Positions 12,553 to 58,807 of a DNA stretch of 64,000 nucleotides are shown here, one piece after another. A program made the translations under genes and the position numbers. The notes under the pieces were generated by a model. It searched no databases, was not told where the DNA came from, and was given only the letters and a program-made list of their open reading frames with translations. Position 1 is the stretch's first letter. The number at the start of each line of letters is the position of its first letter. Source of the stretch: Zygnema cylindricum. Lineage: Eukaryota > Streptophyta > Zygnematophyceae > Zygnematales > Zygnemataceae. The stretch covers positions 1 to 64,000 of the forward strand of contig JBBHKE010002011.1 in assembly GCA_037447655.1 (NCBI GenBank), written 5' to 3'.

Positions 12553-14446
12553 GTATGGGTTTTTATCTCATGCCACGCATAATGATTGGATCATCCATAG
12601 TGGTGCCAGTCATCACCTCTCTCCTCGATCTGATTGGTTTTCACATTTAACTCCTTTACTCTCCCCTATGCAGCTACGCTCCTCGATCTGATTGGTTTTC
12701 ACATTTAACTCCTTTACTCTCCCCTATGCAGCTACGTTTAGGGGACGACCGAATACTATTGACCACTCACTCTGGCCACGTTCGCGTTCCAAATTCCTCG
12801 ATTCACATTGAGAATGTCCTTTTAGTCCCTGGTTTAGTTCGGAATTTATTTTTTGTTCGAGTCGCTATGACTGACGCCGTTAAGGCCGAGTTTGATGAAG
12901 ATAACGTTCAATTTTTAAGGTAAAAGGATAAAATTAGCGTAGGTTATGGAATAGCAAAAGACTCTACGCACCCCCCACAATCCTACTATCCTAAAAATCT
13001 TTATGCATCAAGTGTTAGCGTCCCTTTTGCTTTAAATGCTTGTGTAGACGATTTTTCCCTTTGGCATCTACGCTATGGGCATCTAAATAGCGCTAGTTTA
13101 ACTTCTTTGCCAAAACTTGTAACCGGAATCAACTCTTTTTCTAACAAAAAATTGGATCTTTGTCATGGATGCATTCAAGGCAAAATGCCTCATCAATCTT
13201 TCCCTATCAATACTACCATTATCACGGAAACACTTGCTCTCATTCACGCCGACGTATACGGTCCCATGCGCAAACGCAGTTTTGGCGGCTCCTTGTACTT
13301 TGTTTCTTTCATCGATCATGCCACCCCGCTTTTCCCATGTGTACACTATTTGTCATAAATCTGACGTTTTTGCACGTTTTCAGGAATTTAAAGCGCTTGC
13401 AGAAAATTTTCACAACAAGCGCATCAAGGCTTTACGCACTGACAACGGTGGCGAGTTTATGTCTCACCAATTCTCCTCCTTCCTCGCTCACCATGGCATC
13501 TCGCACCAGTTGAGTGCACCATACACTCCTCAGCAGAATGGCGTTGTCGAAAGGTACAATCGTACTTTAGCAGAAATGGCTCGATCTATGTTGTATTTTG
13601 CAAATTTGCCTTTTTCTTTTTGGGCTGAGGCAACCATATGCGCTAACTATCTTCGTAACTTGTGCCCGACAAGTGCTAGGCCTAACATTACCCCTATGGA
13701 AGCATGGTCCTCTATAAAACCCGATGTAGGCCACCTTCGTACCTTCGGTTACGAAGTGTGGTATAAGGACGTCACCCATTCTACCGGGAAATGGGGTGCT
13801 CGCGCGTTTTGTGGAACGTTTGTAAGGTATGCCCCTAACTCAAAAGCCTACCGCATTTGGTGCCCTTCACGTTGTCGTGTGATCACCACACGTGACGTTG
13901 CTTTTAACGAATCCCCCCTTCTCCAAACTCTCTCTCGTCCTCCCCTTCCATCCTCTCATGTCGACCTCTCTTCTTATCCCTCTCTTTGTAATTTCCCCAC
14001 CCCCATCCAATCCCCACCCAACTTTATTTCTCTCTCAGTTCCCCCACTTCTCCCACCTCCACTCCCCTCTCTTCATCCTACCCCTGTTATCAATAACCCC
14101 ATCATGTCAAATGATCCCTCTTCCTTCCCATCTCGGTCCTCTCAACTTACCCATGACGACGATCCTCTCTTTTCCTCTCTTCTGTCCACTATACTCCCTC
14201 CCCCTCCCCTCCTTTCAAATCCCCACCCTCTTTTATCCCCCACAGATGTCTCCCCCGATACATTTCGTCGATACCCGACCAGATCTCGTGGTCCTCCGTC
14301 TCGCCTCATTGAGACCATGGATCATGCATCCCTTGCTTGCGCTTATTCAACTGGTGCCTTTGCCTCTCTATCTCCACCCCTTTGGATGCCAATTCTCCTC
14401 TTGTCCCCTCTACCGACATCCTCCTCTCCCCTCCTCTCCGATACCA
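12553..14446 (+). pseudogene. Ty1/copia pol fragment (protease-integrase), inserted in intron 2 of gene A
   Basis: The order is a protease segment (DWIIHSGASHH at 12575, catalytic Asp replaced by His), then GAG-pre-integrase (LWHLRYGHLNS with CHGC), then the integrase core (HADVYGP, LRTDNGGEF, PQQNGVVERYNR; all three acidic residues present), then the C-terminal RVITTRDVAFNESP region and a CT-rich Ser/Pro linker. LTRs, gag, RT and RNase H are missing. Lesions are a 58-bp tandem duplication at 12621-12736, a stop near 12921 and a frame change near 13355. The integrase C-terminus resembles that of the minus-strand copia at 52.6-55.0 kb. The 3' end is cut by the TRIM. Confidence 0.85.
12621..12736 (+). 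repeat. 58-bp tandem duplication in copia fragment
   Basis: CTCCTCGATCTGATTGG...CAGCTACG occurs twice in direct succession (12621-12678 and 12679-12736) with no differences seen. As 58 is not a multiple of three, it shifts the protease frame. Confidence 0.9.
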
Positions 14447-14502
14447 TGTTAAGATTCCTAGAATCGGGGGATAGAATGGACAATCCCGGTAAAGGGATTG
14501 AT

Positions 14503-14573
14503 GAGCCGGCCAGGATTTGAACCTGGGACCTTTCACTTAAGCTGCGAACGCACTACCACTGTGCCACCAGATC
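14503..14573 (-). tRNA. tRNA-like gene in TRIM 3' LTR
   Basis: 71 nt with D stem GCAC/GTGC, D loop AGTGGTA, T arm CCAGG-TTCAAAT-CCTGG (perfect) and a slightly degraded acceptor stem GATCTGG/CCGGCTC. The anticodon arm TTCGC-AGCTTAA-GTGAA has a weak last pair, and position 33 is G rather than T. It may therefore be promoter-competent (boxes A and B present) but is unlikely to be a working tRNA. Confidence 0.65.
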
Positions 14574-14790
14574 AGATGTTACGCTGGTGGGTCCAATTTT
14601 ATATAGGTTTTTAGTGTGGATTTTACCACAATTCGGGATATCGAACTCACGTTTCACGTACGTCAACACCCCCCCTCGAGAGGTAGCCGGTCATAATTGT
14701 CCATGTAAACCTGGTCCCCCTGGCTCTGATTCCATGTTAAGATTCCTAGATTCGGGGGATAGAATGGACGATCCCAGTAAAGGGATCGAT

Positions 14791-14861
14791 GAGCTGACCA
14801 GGATTTGAACCTGGGACCTTTCATTTAAGCTGCGAACGCACTACCACTGTGCCACCAGCTC
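14791..14861 (-). tRNA. tRNA-like gene in TRIM 5' LTR
   Basis: 71 nt. The acceptor stem GAGCTGG/TCAGCTC pairs over all seven positions (last pair G-T). The D stem is GCAC/GTGC, and the T arm CCAGG-TTCAAAT-CCTGG is perfect. The anticodon arm TTCGC-AGCTTAA-ATGAA has four pairs and one mismatch; the loop centre would read CTT, but the universal T33 is G. There is no encoded CCA. The stem pairing is better than in the 3' LTR copy. Confidence 0.7.
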
Positions 14862-14984
14862 AGATGTTACGCTGGTGGGTCCAATTTTATATTGGTTTTT
14901 AGTGTGGATTTTACCAAATTCCAGATATTGAGCGCACGTTTCACATACATCAACACCTGGTTTTGCGGGTGAAACTCTCCCTCG

Positions 14985-18839: not shown

Positions 18840-19694
<855 letters not shown>

Positions 19695-46922: not shown

Positions 46923-48998
46923 AAATGGTATCGGAGCTTTAGGTAAAATTACAAACATCCAAAAACTTAATGGAAGTAATTATTTACTGTGGAAAGCTAA
47001 GTTGACCCGAATTCTAAAATTTACGAATTACTGGGGTATTATAGCAGGCAGTGAACATCAACCTACTGAAGCCCAAAAGGCAGTAGGATATCAGGCAGTA
47101 GGATATGATAGAAGGGAAGAAGAGGTAGTGACATTAATTTTTCTAGCAGTGGAAAATAGTCAACTTTTACACATAGTAAAGTTGGATAAACCTAAGGCTA
47201 TGTAGGATAAACAAAAGACTGTACATGAGGGTAATAATCCGTCAAATATTATGCAATTAAAGAACAAATTGTTGGACTCTAGTATGGAGAGTGGAGATAC
47301 TATTGAAACCCATATCAATACACTGAAAGAGCTTAAGTTACAGTTAGGCGCAGTCGGCACAAAACTGAATGATGATAATTTGATCCTCAAACTGTTTAGG
47401 TTATTGCCATCACGGTATGCATTGATGATCACGGCTTTGAAAAGTAAACATACAATAGACTTTGATGCAATATGTCAGCATTTCATTCAAAAAGAAGTTG
47501 AAATTAAAAGAAAGGAGGAAAAAGAGTCAGTTTCATCTCTTTATGCCAAAAATAAACAGTCACTAAGATGTACCGAGTTAGTAATTGCTTGTGCTATTTG
47601 TAGCAAAGCCAATCATCAGACTGTTAACTATAGATTTAAAAAGAAAGATACTGAAAACTTCAAGAAAAAGATTGATTGTTACTGTTATGGAAAACCAAGT
47701 CATAAGTCTTCATTTTGTCGTAGCAAAGATTAAAACAAACAAAACAAACAGTCATTTGCCATTAACATTCAAGATGAGACTAAATTTTTCCTCACAAAGT
47801 CAAATGCTCAAAAAAGTAAATGGATTATAGGCTAAGGAGCATCGCATCATATGTGTAATGACAAGTCCATCTTTTCTTCTCTCACAACATTATAAAGTCC
47901 TCGACGGATTGTACTAGGAGATGATAAGATTCTAAAAACCAGTTTAATGGGCGAGGCTAAGTTACAGTTGTACTGTGATACTGGTAGCCACGAAGGCCAT
48001 CTAAAAGAAGTGTTATACTTACCAGGTTTAAAACATAACCTTTTTAGTGTTATGCATGCAGTGAGGGGTGGACTTAAAAGTCGAATTTGAGAAAAAGAAA
48101 ACGAACGTTGTGAAATCAGAAGTGAGGGAAAACTAATCGCTCTTGGATATTCGGAAAGGAATCTTTTTGCTCTACGTTTGGACGATGAAGATGCACAGAT
48201 GAATTTCATCAAAAAAATACAGACTTTGGAGCTATGACATTAATGACTTTGTCATCTGCGAGAGCAAAATCTCAACGACTCATCGACAAGAAGATGGTGA
48301 AAGGACTTGAGGACATCGACGCCAAAGACAACCTTAAGATGCTAGGTAATCCAAGCAGAGAACATGAAGTGGAGCCTTTGTCATCCACGCTAATTTCTAT
48401 TCCAGTTCAGACTTCCGTCATCCCTTGTGGAACATCAACCTTTCAATCTTTACCAGTGGAGAAGTTACCGGCACCACAACCTTTGCAAAGTTCAATCTCT
48501 CCAAATCCGATTCAACAATCGAGATTGAAGGTAACTCCTCAAAGAGTCTAATCGGGTACGTGCTAAACCAAAACGGCTCATTGAAGAAACATAAGATGTG
48601 GGTTTAACTTATTATTTAATGCTGAACGATGGGGAACCGCAAACCTTTCATAAATCTTTGGAGAGTTTTAATTCTCAGAAATAGAAAGAGGCAATAGAAT
48701 TAGAATATGAATCACTGATCAAAAACAAAACTTGGACCTTAGTAGAACGCCCAAAAGAGAAAAAACATTGTGGGGTGTAAATGGGTCTTTAAAATTAAGA
48801 GGAAATTAGATTCGTCAGTGGAAAGATATGAAGCAAGTTTGATAGCTAAGGGGTATTCCCAAGAAGAGGGGGTTGATTACACTAAGACTTTCTTACCTGT
48901 AGTGAAGTTTAATAGTCTCACTAGTTTAATAGCCTTAAGGGCAATTAAGGGTATGTAGATGCATCATCTAGATATCAAAACTTCATTCCTTAAAGGGA
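46923..48998 (+). pseudogene. Element 7 copia Gag-PR and RT fragment
   Basis: The primer site TGGTATCGGAGC is complementary to the tRNA 3' end. Gag: ITNIQKLNGSNYLLWKAKL, SMESGDTIETHINTLKELK, LLPSRYALMITALKSKH; two degenerate knuckles (CAICSKANHQTVNY, CYCYGKPSHKSSFC). Protease region KWIIG*GASHHMC, with a stop where the catalytic motif should be. A large deletion removes integrase. RT resumes at CKWVFKIKRKLDSSVERYEA, HHLDIKTSFLKG and stops at about 48998 in a purine tract. Confidence 0.8.
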
Positions 48999-55522: not shown

Positions 55523-56185
55523 TGGATGAACACGGTGTATCCACTACAAAAATGTTGGCGCAAGTTCTCAGAGAGTTGGAAAGTGTGAGGTTACATAATG
55601 CGCAGCTGAGTAAAACCGTCACAGCCTTGGAGTCGCGTCTAGGGGAGCGACCTCTTGGAGGCATAGAGCGAGACTTTCAGAGACCGAAATTAAGACTTCC
55701 CGACGAGTTTGATCCTGCAAGACACAAGAACCTTGACTCATGGCTATTCTCCATTGCGAACTATCTCGAGAATTTTCCTAGCCTGTCGGATCGTGAGAAG
55801 ATTCACTACGCGGGTGGTCTTCTTAAGGGGGCAGCGGGGGCTTGGTGGAGAACATTGGTGGAGGATGATGAGTTACCGACCGTCTGGGCACTCTTCGTTC
55901 AACTTCTCCACGACACTTGGTAGCCGGTCAACACGGTGAAGGCGGCGAGAGATAAGATCGCAGTATTGAAGCAACGAACTTCAATGATGGAGTTTACGCA
56001 AAGGTTCTTGGAGTGCAAGGTTCAAATACCTACGATGACGGAGGATGAAGCCGTGGATCGTTTCGTGAAGGGGCTTAAGTCGTCTATTCGTAGAGATGTG
56101 GAACAATGGCTTGCCCGGGAAAGCACGACTCCTCCTCTCTCAGCAATCATCCAGTTTGCGGAGCGGACAAATTTAGTCGACTTTA
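55523..56185 (+). pseudogene. Ty3/gypsy Gag
   Basis: ATG at 55523: MDEHGVSTTKMLAQVLREL, a coiled N-terminal part (LHNAQLSKTVTALESRL), LRLPDEFDPARHKNLDSWLF, then the retrotransposon-gag core LLKGAAGAWWRTLVED and FTQRFLECKVQIPTMTEDEA, FVKGLKSSIRRDV. One stop (TAG at 55921) lies mid-gene. It ends at FAERTNLVDF, where the 570-bp duplicated segment begins. No pol follows. Confidence 0.85.
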
Positions 56186-56755
56186 ACGATTGGTGGTATC
56201 TTAACGCATGTTGCTTATCAAAGATTCGCAGCGTTTGGAAACAGGTGAACCAGAGTGTGTACGGACCACCGAGCCGTACTTTTCCCTGTCGTCCCATAAA
56301 AGAAAGCAGCGTTTGGAAGTTTTGAGGAAGCAACGAACCACTGAAAACCGTACAAAACCGTTCAAAAATGTGTCGAGCCACCACGTAAAACCTACAAGAC
56401 CGTGCTGGTGGACCAAAAGCTTAACTCAATTTTTCTTGCATCCCATTTCTTTCCCTCTCCCTTTCCCTTTTTGTGTCCCTTAGGAGTATTCCCTTCTGTC
56501 CCTCTTCCTTGCCCTCTTTCTCCCTCTCCCTTTCCCTCTCCCTCTCTCTCCTCTTTTCCTTCCCTCAGTTTTTTGTGTCTCATGGCTTCTCTCACTGTAC
56601 CTTTAAGGAATAAATTTATTCAAGTCAGGATTCACGAACTAGTCGCTTTCATTAAACGATGTTTTTTGAACGAAAATTCGGTCGAAAATTTCATGGATTC
56701 TACTGGAGGTAAGAATAGCTCAGGAACCTAAAAGATTTGATTTATTGTTGTTTCG
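56186..56755 (+). repeat. 570-bp segmental duplicate, copy 1
   Basis: ACGATTGGTGGTATCTTAACG ... TTTATTGTTGTTTCG, almost identical to 58239-58807 (569 bp). Copy 1 follows gypsy gag and precedes the repeat at 56756. Copy 2 has unrelated flanks. Confidence 0.9.
56582..56708 (+). CDS. MAS-type exon 1 (copy 1)
   Basis: After a pyrimidine tract and CTCAG, ATG opens MASLTVPLRNKFIQVRIHEL, VAFIKRCFLNENSVENFMD, STG, and ends ACTGGAG|GTAAGA, leaving one base (phase 1) as in the multi-exon family. LRN-x-F and its general layout resemble copy B exon 1, so it may be a distant or orphan member. No second exon is found nearby. Confidence 0.45.
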
Positions 56756-57140
56756 TAAGTTGTGTTACGGGCTTTCCATGTGATCTTCTTAGATCGCTAC
56801 TTTCATCAGCGACCGTCCGATCGTCCGAATCTAACGATAGTCCTATCGTAAGTTGTGTTATGGGCTTTTCATGTGATCTTCTTAGATCGGTACTTTCATC
56901 AACGACCGTCAGATCGTCCAAATCTGACGGTTTAAATAAAAAGTAGCTCAAAACTCACAGGAAAAAGATTTTTTTGTCCATTTTTTTTTTCAAATTTAGA
57001 CATGACGTTTAATTCTCTATCGTTCCATGTGCAACTCAACGCTGTTACTATTTTATTTCATTTTGCGGCCAATACAATATGGGTCTTAAGGCCATATTGT
57101 ATGTTTTGCATACAATAGGCATATTGTATGGCCGTACGGT
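56756..57140. repeat. Copy of the repetitive coding segment of 10716-11095
   Basis: ~385 bp, high identity, here without the CACCG TIRs. The minus-strand frame (56742-56951) keeps both SDD-type units (SDDRTVADESSDLRRSHGKP). Homology ends just after CACCTACTTTTGAACTATG. Confidence 0.7.
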
Positions 57141-58238
57141 CACCTACTTTTGAACTATGGGTCTTTCGTTCGATTTCTCGTACATTATTTTCGTACTGAA
57201 ACTGTACGGACAGCCCACCTCCCACCAAATATACCTCGATTATTTTTCTTGGTCCCGGCACGATTTATCGAGAACTATGATTGCGCGATAGTAGATATAT
57301 AGAGTAGCTAATAATCGCTGTAAAAATATTCCCGATACAGAACACTTCTTTGCAAAGCGTTCGAATGTGCGAAAATGATTTCGCTACTTTGAAATGTGAC
57401 GGCTGTAGACGATTTCAAAACGTGCGGCAATTGGTGACATCTACAATTGGTGGTACCTTTCCATCTCTTGCTATCGAAGTTTACACGTTTAGAAGTTTCG
57501 AGGAAGGAACGAACCACTTTTTACCGTACAGTGTGTGTACGAAACCATACCAGACGTGTGTACGAAACACTGTCAATCGTATCTTTCTCCCGTGCCTGGG
57601 AAGGTTACAGCTTTTTGGAAGAGTCTGTAATCCACGTGCTCAAAATTGAATGGCTCCACTTAAGATAAGGTCGTAGATTGAAAATCGTCAAAATATTTTT
57701 CTCACCGACCAGCTTCAACTTTGAAATCTTCATTTGCGTACCATGGTCGTGTTGTGATTTCTGAATGTATGTATCATGTGCAAAATTATTTTTCGATTTC
57801 CACTCGTTGCCGTCTTGACACGTATGTTCATTATCCAACGTGTCGCGGCTCAATTTTTTCTGTAAATGGTGATGTACTTCATCGAGGTACATCACCATTT
57901 ACAGAAACTTTCGAAACGAATGCTTCGCGAAAATAAATCCAACGGTCATTGTTATCTCCCAGACTTTTGGAGATTTTTTCCAAGATTCACTGTAATGCTG
58001 TTCGCCCATAAAAACAAAATAAGCGGTAAAATATGGTACGGATAGGCGCCGATTTCTGTGAACTACCCCACTTTTCGTCTGATGGAACGCCAACCTAAAA
58101 AATTTCCCACAATTGGTGACGTCTACCAAAATAACAACGGTTGTAGACGCGCAGGGTTTTGTGACATTGTGACATCATGCTCGTTTGAAATGTGACGGCT
58201 GTAGACAATTTGAAAACATGCGACAATTGGTGACGTCT
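57141..58238. other. Intergenic, repeat fragments and a perfect hairpin
   Basis: A 21-bp perfect inverted repeat with 9-nt loop lies at 57857-57907 (arms TTTCTGTAAATGGTGATGTAC). Two copies of the TGTGACGGCTGTAGACGATTT word cluster lie near 57390 and 58190. No gene supported. Confidence 0.5.
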
Positions 58239-58807
58239 ACGATTGGTGGTATCTTAACGCATCTTGCTTATCAAAGATTCGCAGCGTTTGGAAACAGGTG
58301 AACCAGAGTGTGTACGGACCACCGAGCCGTACTTTTCCCTGTCGTCCCATAAAAGAAAGCAGCGTTTGGAAGTTTTGAGGAAGCAACGAACCACTGAAAA
58401 CCGTACAAAACCGTTCAAAAAGGTGTCGAGGCACCACGTAAAACCTACAAGACCGTGTTGGTGGACCAAAAGCTTAACTCAATTTTCCTGCATCCCATTT
58501 CTTTCCCTCTCCCTTTCCCTTTTTGTGTCCCTTAGGAGTATTCCCTTCTGTCCCTCTTCCTTGCCCTCTTTCTCCCTCTCCCTCTCCCTCTCCCTCTCTC
58601 TCCTCTTTTCCTTCCCTCAGTTTTTTGTGTCCCATGGCTTCTCTCACTGTACCTTTAAGGAATAAATTTATTCAAGTCAGGATTCACGAACTAGTCGCTT
58701 TCATTAAACGATGTTTTTTGAACGAAAATTCGGTCGAAAATTTCATGGATTCTACTGGAGGTAAGAATAGCTCAGGAACCTAAAAGATTTGATTTATTGT
58801 TGTTTCG
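58239..58807 (+). repeat. 569-bp segmental duplicate, copy 2
   Basis: Near-identical to 56186-56755; differences are single bases and one CTC-repeat length change. Confidence 0.9.
58634..58760 (+). CDS. MAS-type exon 1 (copy 2)
   Basis: Same 42-codon open exon as at 56582, with the same phase-1 donor TACTGGAG|GTAAGA. Downstream sequence differs from copy 1 after 58807. Confidence 0.45.

Follow-up and report, generated by a model that had tools for sequence, protein, structure and literature searches.

The window analysed here, a 64,000-nt stretch of Zygnema cylindricum DNA, carries at 14447-14955 on the minus strand a complete TRIM of 509 bp, composed of an LTR of 221 bp, an interior of 66 bp and an LTR of 222 bp. 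The LTRs with their TGTTGA...TTAACA ends, the primer site, the interior and the polypurine tract of the original prediction all lie at their expected place on this strand. Its features, in the direction of the element, are as follows.

14735..14955, minus strand: 5′ LTR, 221 bp, ends TGTTGA...TTAACA
14886..14891, minus strand: TATAAA of the 5′ LTR, 30 bp upstream of the tRNA
14790..14861, minus strand: tRNA-like gene of the 5′ LTR, 72 nt, with A box TGGCACAGTGG, B box GGTTCAAATCC, anticodon CTT and G33
14769..14788, minus strand: short hairpin of the 5′ LTR, just 3′ of the tRNA, found as a self-complementary match
14669..14734, minus strand: interior, 66 bp, without coding capacity
14719..14734, minus strand: primer-binding site (PBS) TGGAATCAGAGCCAGG, complementary to the 3′ end of host initiator tRNA-Met (15 of 18 nt against the end of a host tRNA-Met gene)
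14669..14677, minus strand: polypurine tract (PPT) GAGGGGGGG
14447..14668, minus strand: 3′ LTR, 222 bp
14598..14603, minus strand: TATAAA of the 3′ LTR, 30 bp upstream of the tRNA
14502..14573, minus strand: tRNA-like gene of the 3′ LTR, 72 nt, anticodon CTT, one acceptor mismatch
14481..14500, minus strand: short hairpin of the 3′ LTR, just 3′ of the tRNA, found as a self-complementary match
14436..14446, minus strand: PBS-like piece TGGTATCGGAG, immediately behind the 3′ LTR

The two LTRs are 92.3% identical and, being 7.7% different, mark this as an old copy; no TSD was found at its flanks. The PBS-like piece behind the 3′ LTR may be the start of a second interior, that is, the remnant of a cut-off tandem array. 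The element sits at the end of a reading frame (13123-14520, plus strand) that looks Copia integrase-like by eye. Two other repeats were noted in the window: about 550 bp duplicated some 2052 bp apart at 56179-58782 (91-99% identical), possibly the LTR pair of another element, and two 283-bp copies, 99% identical and spaced by 293 bp, at 19119-19694, a recent tandem duplication.

A tRNA-like gene had been predicted in sense in both LTRs. ARAGORN reports one in each, in sense with the element and twice labelled tRNA-Lys(CTT), and the Rfam model RF00005 scores 51.7 bits in the 5′ LTR and 50.6 bits in the 3′ LTR (gathering score 29); the length is 72 nt rather than the 71 nt first given. No Rfam family besides these two tRNAs reached its gathering score in the window. 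Each of the two tRNAs has one stem mismatch by eye, and the folding energy of neither is better than that of shuffled sequences (z = −1.11 and −0.19).

Genome counts given here and below are lower bounds, from the one genome examined. A search with the LTR, as the original prediction had proposed, gave at least 76 matches (40 of 817 candidates scored), and the whole 509-bp query gave at least 49 (40 of 874 candidates scored). A 31-base piece of the interior matched 101 times at up to three mismatches (control, 1). Among the 103 loci fetched at first (numbered with L), the 49 from L044 to L092 are interior matches beyond those obtained from whole-element similarity. Their 60 interiors are bordered by LTRs of the window type (LTR1) on both sides in 41 cases, downstream only in 12, upstream only in 6 and on neither side in 1. 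The whole tRNA segment is spanned by 74 of the 102 LTR hits adjoining these interiors, a count in which an LTR between two interiors enters twice. The LTR pair is thus found at many loci and most copies keep the tRNA, which bears out a TRIM family with the tRNA as part of its LTR; the same genome matches and tRNA-bearing, interior-chosen copies rule out a single insertion into one LTR pair.

Of 27 LTR1 elements, 17 have exact 5-bp TSDs, compared with 2 of 702 wrong-partner controls, and in the arrays L006 and L016, which hold several LTRs, the TSD lies outside the array. The LTR pairs of 15 elements are identical in two cases (L002 and L004) and 90-99.5% identical in the others; the identical pairs indicate that some insertions are recent. 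At L063 and L086, two interiors stand head to tail with no LTR between them.

LTR1 is not the only tRNA-bearing LTR type in this genome. LTR2 (247 bp in L067), a different LTR with a different tRNA, lies upstream of an LTR1-type interior in six mixed loci of the form LTR2-interior-LTR1 (L044, L049, L057, L067, L075 and L080); in L067, these parts are followed by another interior and by the beginning of a fourth LTR type, which is decayed. LTR2 also has an interior of its own. Among the matches listed (40 of 304 candidates scored), copies of LTR2 reach 99% identity with the query, and a 5-bp TSD was recognised by eye in four of nine LTR2 loci (L105, L107, L108 and L112 of L104-L112). ARAGORN found a tRNA in 25 of 30 LTR2 copies (Asp or Ala by anticodon, with one Ser), and a 37-base piece of the LTR2 tRNA has 118 genome matches (control, 0). 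Between LTR1 and LTR2, the flanks are no more alike than shuffled sequences and the tRNA bodies are different.

LTR1 has a diverged scaffold in common with LTR3 (229 bp, L061) and with LTR3b, the young form of LTR3. For LTR3b, a 37-base stretch of the tRNA gave 170 genome matches (control, 0). Seven of 11 LTR3b loci parse with two LTRs, 98.3-100% identical within each pair, and six of these seven have exact TSDs (none at L139); in the remaining four, one LTR was parsed and no TSD. All 12 of 12 further copies of the LTR3b-type tRNA that looked single match the LTR beyond the tRNA (L156 without U3; L161 only 81% alike), which rules out dispersal of this tRNA as a SINE.

We then consider the tRNA itself across these types. 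From the 226 LTR1 hits over all loci, 168 near-complete LTRs were used for tRNA calling, and ARAGORN reported a tRNA in 119 of them, compared with 0 of 840 dinucleotide-shuffled LTRs, which rules out a chance fold. The called anticodons are CTT (62), CTA (50) and others (7); CTA is the amber-suppressor anticodon, seen in the copies termed LTR1cta, for example at L027:1596-1668. Infernal, at E up to 0.01, found a tRNA in all 16 of the loci given to it; under fast filters and the gathering-score cut-off, the count was 17 of 20 loci, and three of the 16 Infernal-positive loci were without a match. In the representatives of LTR1, LTR1cta, LTR3 and LTR3b, all 21 of 21 cloverleaf pairs are formed, and the minimum-energy fold is the cloverleaf for LTR1, LTR1cta, LTR3 and LTR2 but not for LTR3b. 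Folding energies of the five representatives are mixed when set against shuffles (z = −2.04 for LTR1, −2.35 for LTR1cta, −2.00 for LTR2, −0.80 for LTR3 and −0.92 for LTR3b).

Short hairpins follow the tRNA on its 3′ side in LTR1, LTR3b and LTR2; U5 folds better than shuffles only in LTR2 (z = −3.54, 0 of 200), the other values being −0.29 to −1.00. By eye, a short hairpin in U3 is kept with different letters in LTR1, LTR3 and LTR3b (L003, L061 and L139). A motif conserved shortly upstream of the tRNA, GGACCC(A/G)CCAG, can pair by eye with the tRNA's own 5′ strand; in the 3′ LTR, this pairing could possibly act as a switch between hairpin and cloverleaf.

How the tRNA has changed relative to its surroundings bears on whether its fold matters. 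Between the LTR1 or LTR1cta representatives and those of LTR3 or LTR3b, U3 is 0.60-0.62 identical and U5 0.60-0.63 (shuffled maximum 0.53-0.58), and the tRNA is 0.85-0.96 identical; the window copies compare with LTR3 in the same way (U3 0.61-0.63, U5 0.59-0.62, tRNA 0.92-0.94). Within a set of 58 LTR1 copies, conservation of the tRNA does not exceed that of its flanks, and in L044 a decayed relative of LTR3 retains 17 of 21 pairs, a level that chance would also give (0.26-0.71). Our reading is that source lineages may be under selection and that dead copies decay.

Five stem changes separate LTR1 from LTR3b, all in the anticodon stem and none breaking a pair: 27-43 went from U-A to C-G, 29-41 from C-G to G-C, and 30-40 from G-U to A-U, so that two are compensatory double changes. 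LTR1 and LTR1cta differ at 11-24 (C-G to U-A) and 30-40 (G-U to A-U). Monte Carlo values are 0.007 (LTR1 vs. LTR3b) and 0.045 (LTR1 vs. LTR1cta), with few sequences compared and under a mutation model of our own. Since the anticodon stem lies in neither promoter box, these compensatory changes hint at selection on the RNA fold of the LTR tRNA.

The signal over many copies is weaker. Covariation was scored in 84 copies chosen for diversity from the 157 segments of 72 or 73 nt among 179 LTR1/LTR3 segments; dropping the 22 segments of other length favours intact copies. Paired cells amount to 90.9%, compared with 89.6% in shuffles, and the covariation score is 0.185, compared with 0.157 (0 of 500 shuffles as high). 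The counts are 9 vs. 6.1 for pairs changed on both sides (43 of 500) and 29 vs. 27.5 for further pair types (144 of 500). Structures slid by one to three columns gave 9-13 pairs changed on both sides, and the +2 slide gave more such cells than the true structure (52 vs. 43). The signal is thus weak and comes mostly from one event, at pair 11-24. The test for compensatory changes suggested in the original prediction therefore came out positive at family level, in the anticodon stem, and weak across the 84 copies; of the two comparisons the family-level one is the stronger, but it rests on few sequences.

Could the likeness of the LTR1 and LTR3 tRNAs reflect recent exchange, by template switching or recombination at R, instead of selection? 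Pieces have evidently been exchanged, as the mixed LTR2-interior-LTR1 loci and the tandem arrays show, and the representatives of LTR1 and LTR3 are without any stem difference. Exchange alone, however, does not produce the compensatory stem changes between LTR1 and LTR3b, and we regard this explanation, which is compatible with the one we favour below, as unlikely.

The promoter parts differ between the LTR types. All five representatives and both window copies have A and B boxes; over all 179 LTR1/LTR3 segments, the A-box pattern occurs in 148 and the B-box pattern in 102. Of the 155 LTR1 copies with a recognised tRNA start (13 of the 168 were skipped), 131 have a TATAWA motif that starts 30 bp upstream of the tRNA, and TATA is absent by eye from LTR2 and LTR3. 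The representatives of LTR2 and LTR3, and not those of LTR1 or LTR3b, have CAA within 10 nt upstream of the tRNA. In the representatives of LTR3 and LTR3b, TTTT comes one base past the tRNA, and 28 of 30 LTR2 copies have it within about 30 nt; LTR1 is mostly without a T4 terminator, with TTTT between the tRNA and the LTR end in 39 of the 155 copies. For angiosperm tRNA genes, a published account gives TATA in 22-32%, CAA within 10 nt in 36-45% and poly(T) in 67-72% (PMC11700998). This list of parts would suit Pol III better in LTR2 and LTR3 than in LTR1, where Pol II transcription from the TATA box is possible.

The LTR1 parts lend themselves to another reading, which leaves the tRNA as a passive relic, such as the trace of an old SINE insertion, and has the element driven by an ordinary Pol II promoter, its TATA box placing the start at the 5′ end of the tRNA. 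The position of TATAWA, the scarcity of T4 terminators and the lack of excess tRNA conservation among LTR1 copies are what a relic would lead one to expect. Against it, LTR1 and LTR2 both keep A and B boxes despite unalike flanks and different tRNA bodies, the tRNA is a conserved island between the diverged LTR1 and LTR3, and the stem changes between family representatives are compensatory. We consider a passive relic distinctly unlikely.

For comparison with the host, 26 tRNA loci were chosen from 63 scored of 24,620 candidates, a selection from which the true donor may be missing. Within this selection, LTR1 comes closest to the host tRNAs for Arg, Asn, Cys and Trp (0.65-0.68), which speaks against recent capture of a host tRNA-Lys gene. 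The host tRNA-Lys-CTT (L115) has a different sequence and is not among the five closest of the 26 loci. We take the host tRNA-Lys, tRNA-Trp and tRNA-Met genes to resemble those of green plants. Position 33 is G in 136 of 157 LTR1/LTR3 segments and T in 3. With G33 and no close kinship to the host tRNA-Lys-CTT, the segment does not qualify as a functional nuclear tRNA-Lys gene. Because of G33, the variable anticodon and the different sequence of the host gene, the LTR segment is, judged by its sequence, a tRNA-derived fold and not a tRNA-Lys gene in use; it is ‘Lys’ by anticodon alone. That the element spreads working tRNA genes used by the host for decoding is, accordingly, very improbable: the fully paired stems of four representatives and the minimum-energy cloverleaves of LTR1, LTR1cta, LTR3 and LTR2 would fit such a role, but T33 is rare in LTR1/LTR3 (the LTR2 representative has it), the anticodons drift (CTT, CTA, CTG, CTC; GTC, GGC), and identity to any of the 26 host loci, tRNA-Lys-CTT included, is at most 0.71.

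The PBS points to another host tRNA. Among the 98 of 106 interiors that start at the PBS, 41 have the form TGGTATCAAAG (AA), 21 TGGTATCGGAG (GG), 16 TGGTATCAGAG (AG), 2 TGGTATCGAAG (GA) and 18 some other form. Searching the genome with a 20-base pattern modelled on the plant initiator tRNA 3′ end gave five matches (control, 0), with gene ends CTCCGATA (two genes), CTCTGATA (two) and CTTTGATA (one). ARAGORN calls all five fetched genes (L162-L166) tRNA-Met(CAT), in three acceptor-stem versions. Their acceptor 5′ strand changed along with the 3′ end, so they look like real genes, and by their sequence we take them to be initiator genes. The three common PBS forms are the complements of these three host acceptor ends; for the rare fourth form, TGGTATCGAAG, the 20-base pattern search found no host gene. 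The PBS of a new retroelement copy can be copied from its primer, and since the PBS variants equal the host variants, there is good evidence that the host initiator tRNA-Met is the primer. It had been suggested that the LTR tRNA might help priming, and PBS target and LTR tRNA are indeed both tRNA 3′ ends, but the PBS matches the element's own tRNA at best at 9-11 of 18 nt and the host tRNA-Met at 15-16 of 18 (a comparison made without a random control) and its variants follow those of host tRNA-Met, so that we give this idea next to no weight.

Taken together, we put at roughly three in four the probability that the element is a non-autonomous TRIM of the Helenus/TRIMp3 kind, in which the LTR tRNA would serve as internal (type 2) Pol III promoter and as R, the host initiator tRNA-Met as primer, and an autonomous LTR element as the source of proteins. 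The LTRs, PBS, PPT, 5-bp TSDs, the tRNA as part of the LTR, the further LTR types and the PBS variants are read from the sequence, and from them we infer Pol III transcription, the RNA ends and mobilisation in trans. A Cassandra-like Pol III role for the LTR tRNA, with A and B boxes intact, is thus our best reading. Transcription would begin at the tRNA of the 5′ LTR or slightly upstream of it, and the element RNA would take in U5, PBS, interior, PPT and U3 before ending past the tRNA of the 3′ LTR, which would make the tRNA the terminal repeat R; reverse transcription would be primed by the host initiator tRNA-Met, with proteins supplied in trans by the autonomous element. Counting against this explanation, a tRNA that folds well could be cleaved from the element RNA by RNase P or RNase Z.

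No autonomous partner element was found, a PBS-pattern search of the window giving only two sites on the plus strand. These, of the form TGGTATCGGAGC, lie at 46926 and 55490, the former about 280 bp before a reading frame (47206, plus strand) that looks Copia gag-like by eye. Both are possible partner elements.

A bolder form of the same explanation is possible, although we lean against it: the cloverleaf may be the R region and itself be selected as an RNA structure, one that sets both RNA ends, provides the strand-transfer repeat and is the place where LTR halves are swapped between families. Pol III would start at the 5′ side of the tRNA, and the 3′ side would be set by termination at a T run or by RNase Z cleavage. 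This would account both for the compensatory changes in the anticodon stem and for the tRNA as a conserved island between diverged LTRs.

The tRNA-bearing TRIMs added here, from a plant-like genome, form a large group that is partly young. Their near-identical LTRs, their TSDs and a PBS that records the priming tRNA-Met gene make them a good system for testing the still unproved claim of Pol III transcription and for finding out if the fold of the tRNA has a role of its own. They are also a warning to annotators, since ARAGORN calls tRNAs in so many LTR1 and LTR2 copies (119 of 168 and 25 of 30) and a loose search of the genome returned 24,620 tRNA candidates (63 scored).

Finally, we compare these elements with known systems. 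The tRNA in the LTR had been proposed as an independent version of the Cassandra strategy; tRNA-bearing TRIM LTRs are, however, already described, Helenus being TRIMs with tRNA-derived LTR sequence and TRIMp3 TRIMs with a Pol III promoter (Kojima, 2024; PMC10886601). Among the titles and abstract openings listed in a literature search, none was of a further primary paper on TRIMs that carry tRNAs; Kojima, 2024 is cited in a meeting report of 2026 (PMC12859917).

Cassandra, a TRIM with 5S RNA in its LTR, the PBS TGGTATCAGAGC and tandem arrays (PMC7215508; see also PMC10853983), is alike in having a small RNA gene with a Pol III promoter in the LTR and in forming tandem arrays. In contrast, the window has no 5S match at Rfam gathering scores, and a tRNA stands in its place. 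SINE2 elements, which are free of LTRs and insert by target priming, likewise have a tRNA head with A and B boxes, but the elements described here have two LTRs, a PBS, a PPT and 5-bp TSDs, and the 12 further LTR3b-type tRNA copies all lie in an LTR. Other plant TRIMs share the size class and the tandem arrays; in the main text of the survey by Gao, 2016 (PMC4717578), the word tRNA does not occur and tRNA-bearing LTRs go unreported.

The closest match is Helenus. Like its members, the LTR1 element is a TRIM of less than 1000 bp with two LTRs and no protein (here 509 bp with a 66-bp interior), has tRNA-derived sequence in both LTRs (as in the ARAGORN calls, and in no shuffled LTR), a PBS after the 5′ LTR and a PPT before the 3′ LTR, conserved boxes A and B (here in five representatives and both window copies), and the 5-bp TSDs of plant and fungal members (here at the 17 of 27 elements, the window copy not among them). 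Several families per genome, tandem arrays (in one Helenus family) and CTA anticodons are further points of likeness; suppressor-type CTA anticodons are reported for Helenus of rust fungi (PMC10886601). These features all agree, and the LTR1 element is best placed in the Helenus/TRIMp3 kind, set beside Helenus-1_SMo of Selaginella by the published description of that family, the only plant family listed (LTR 120, interior 85; PMC10886601). The LTRs differ in length, 120 bp in Helenus-1_SMo and about 222, 229 and 247 bp here. For the published members, Pol III transcription has not been validated, conservation is reported for the regions around the boxes, and the majority of the predicted tRNAs were judged unfunctional (PMC10886601). 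Here, in contrast, no cloverleaf pair is lost in four representatives, between which the anticodon stem shows compensatory changes, and several tRNA-bearing LTR types occur in one genome.
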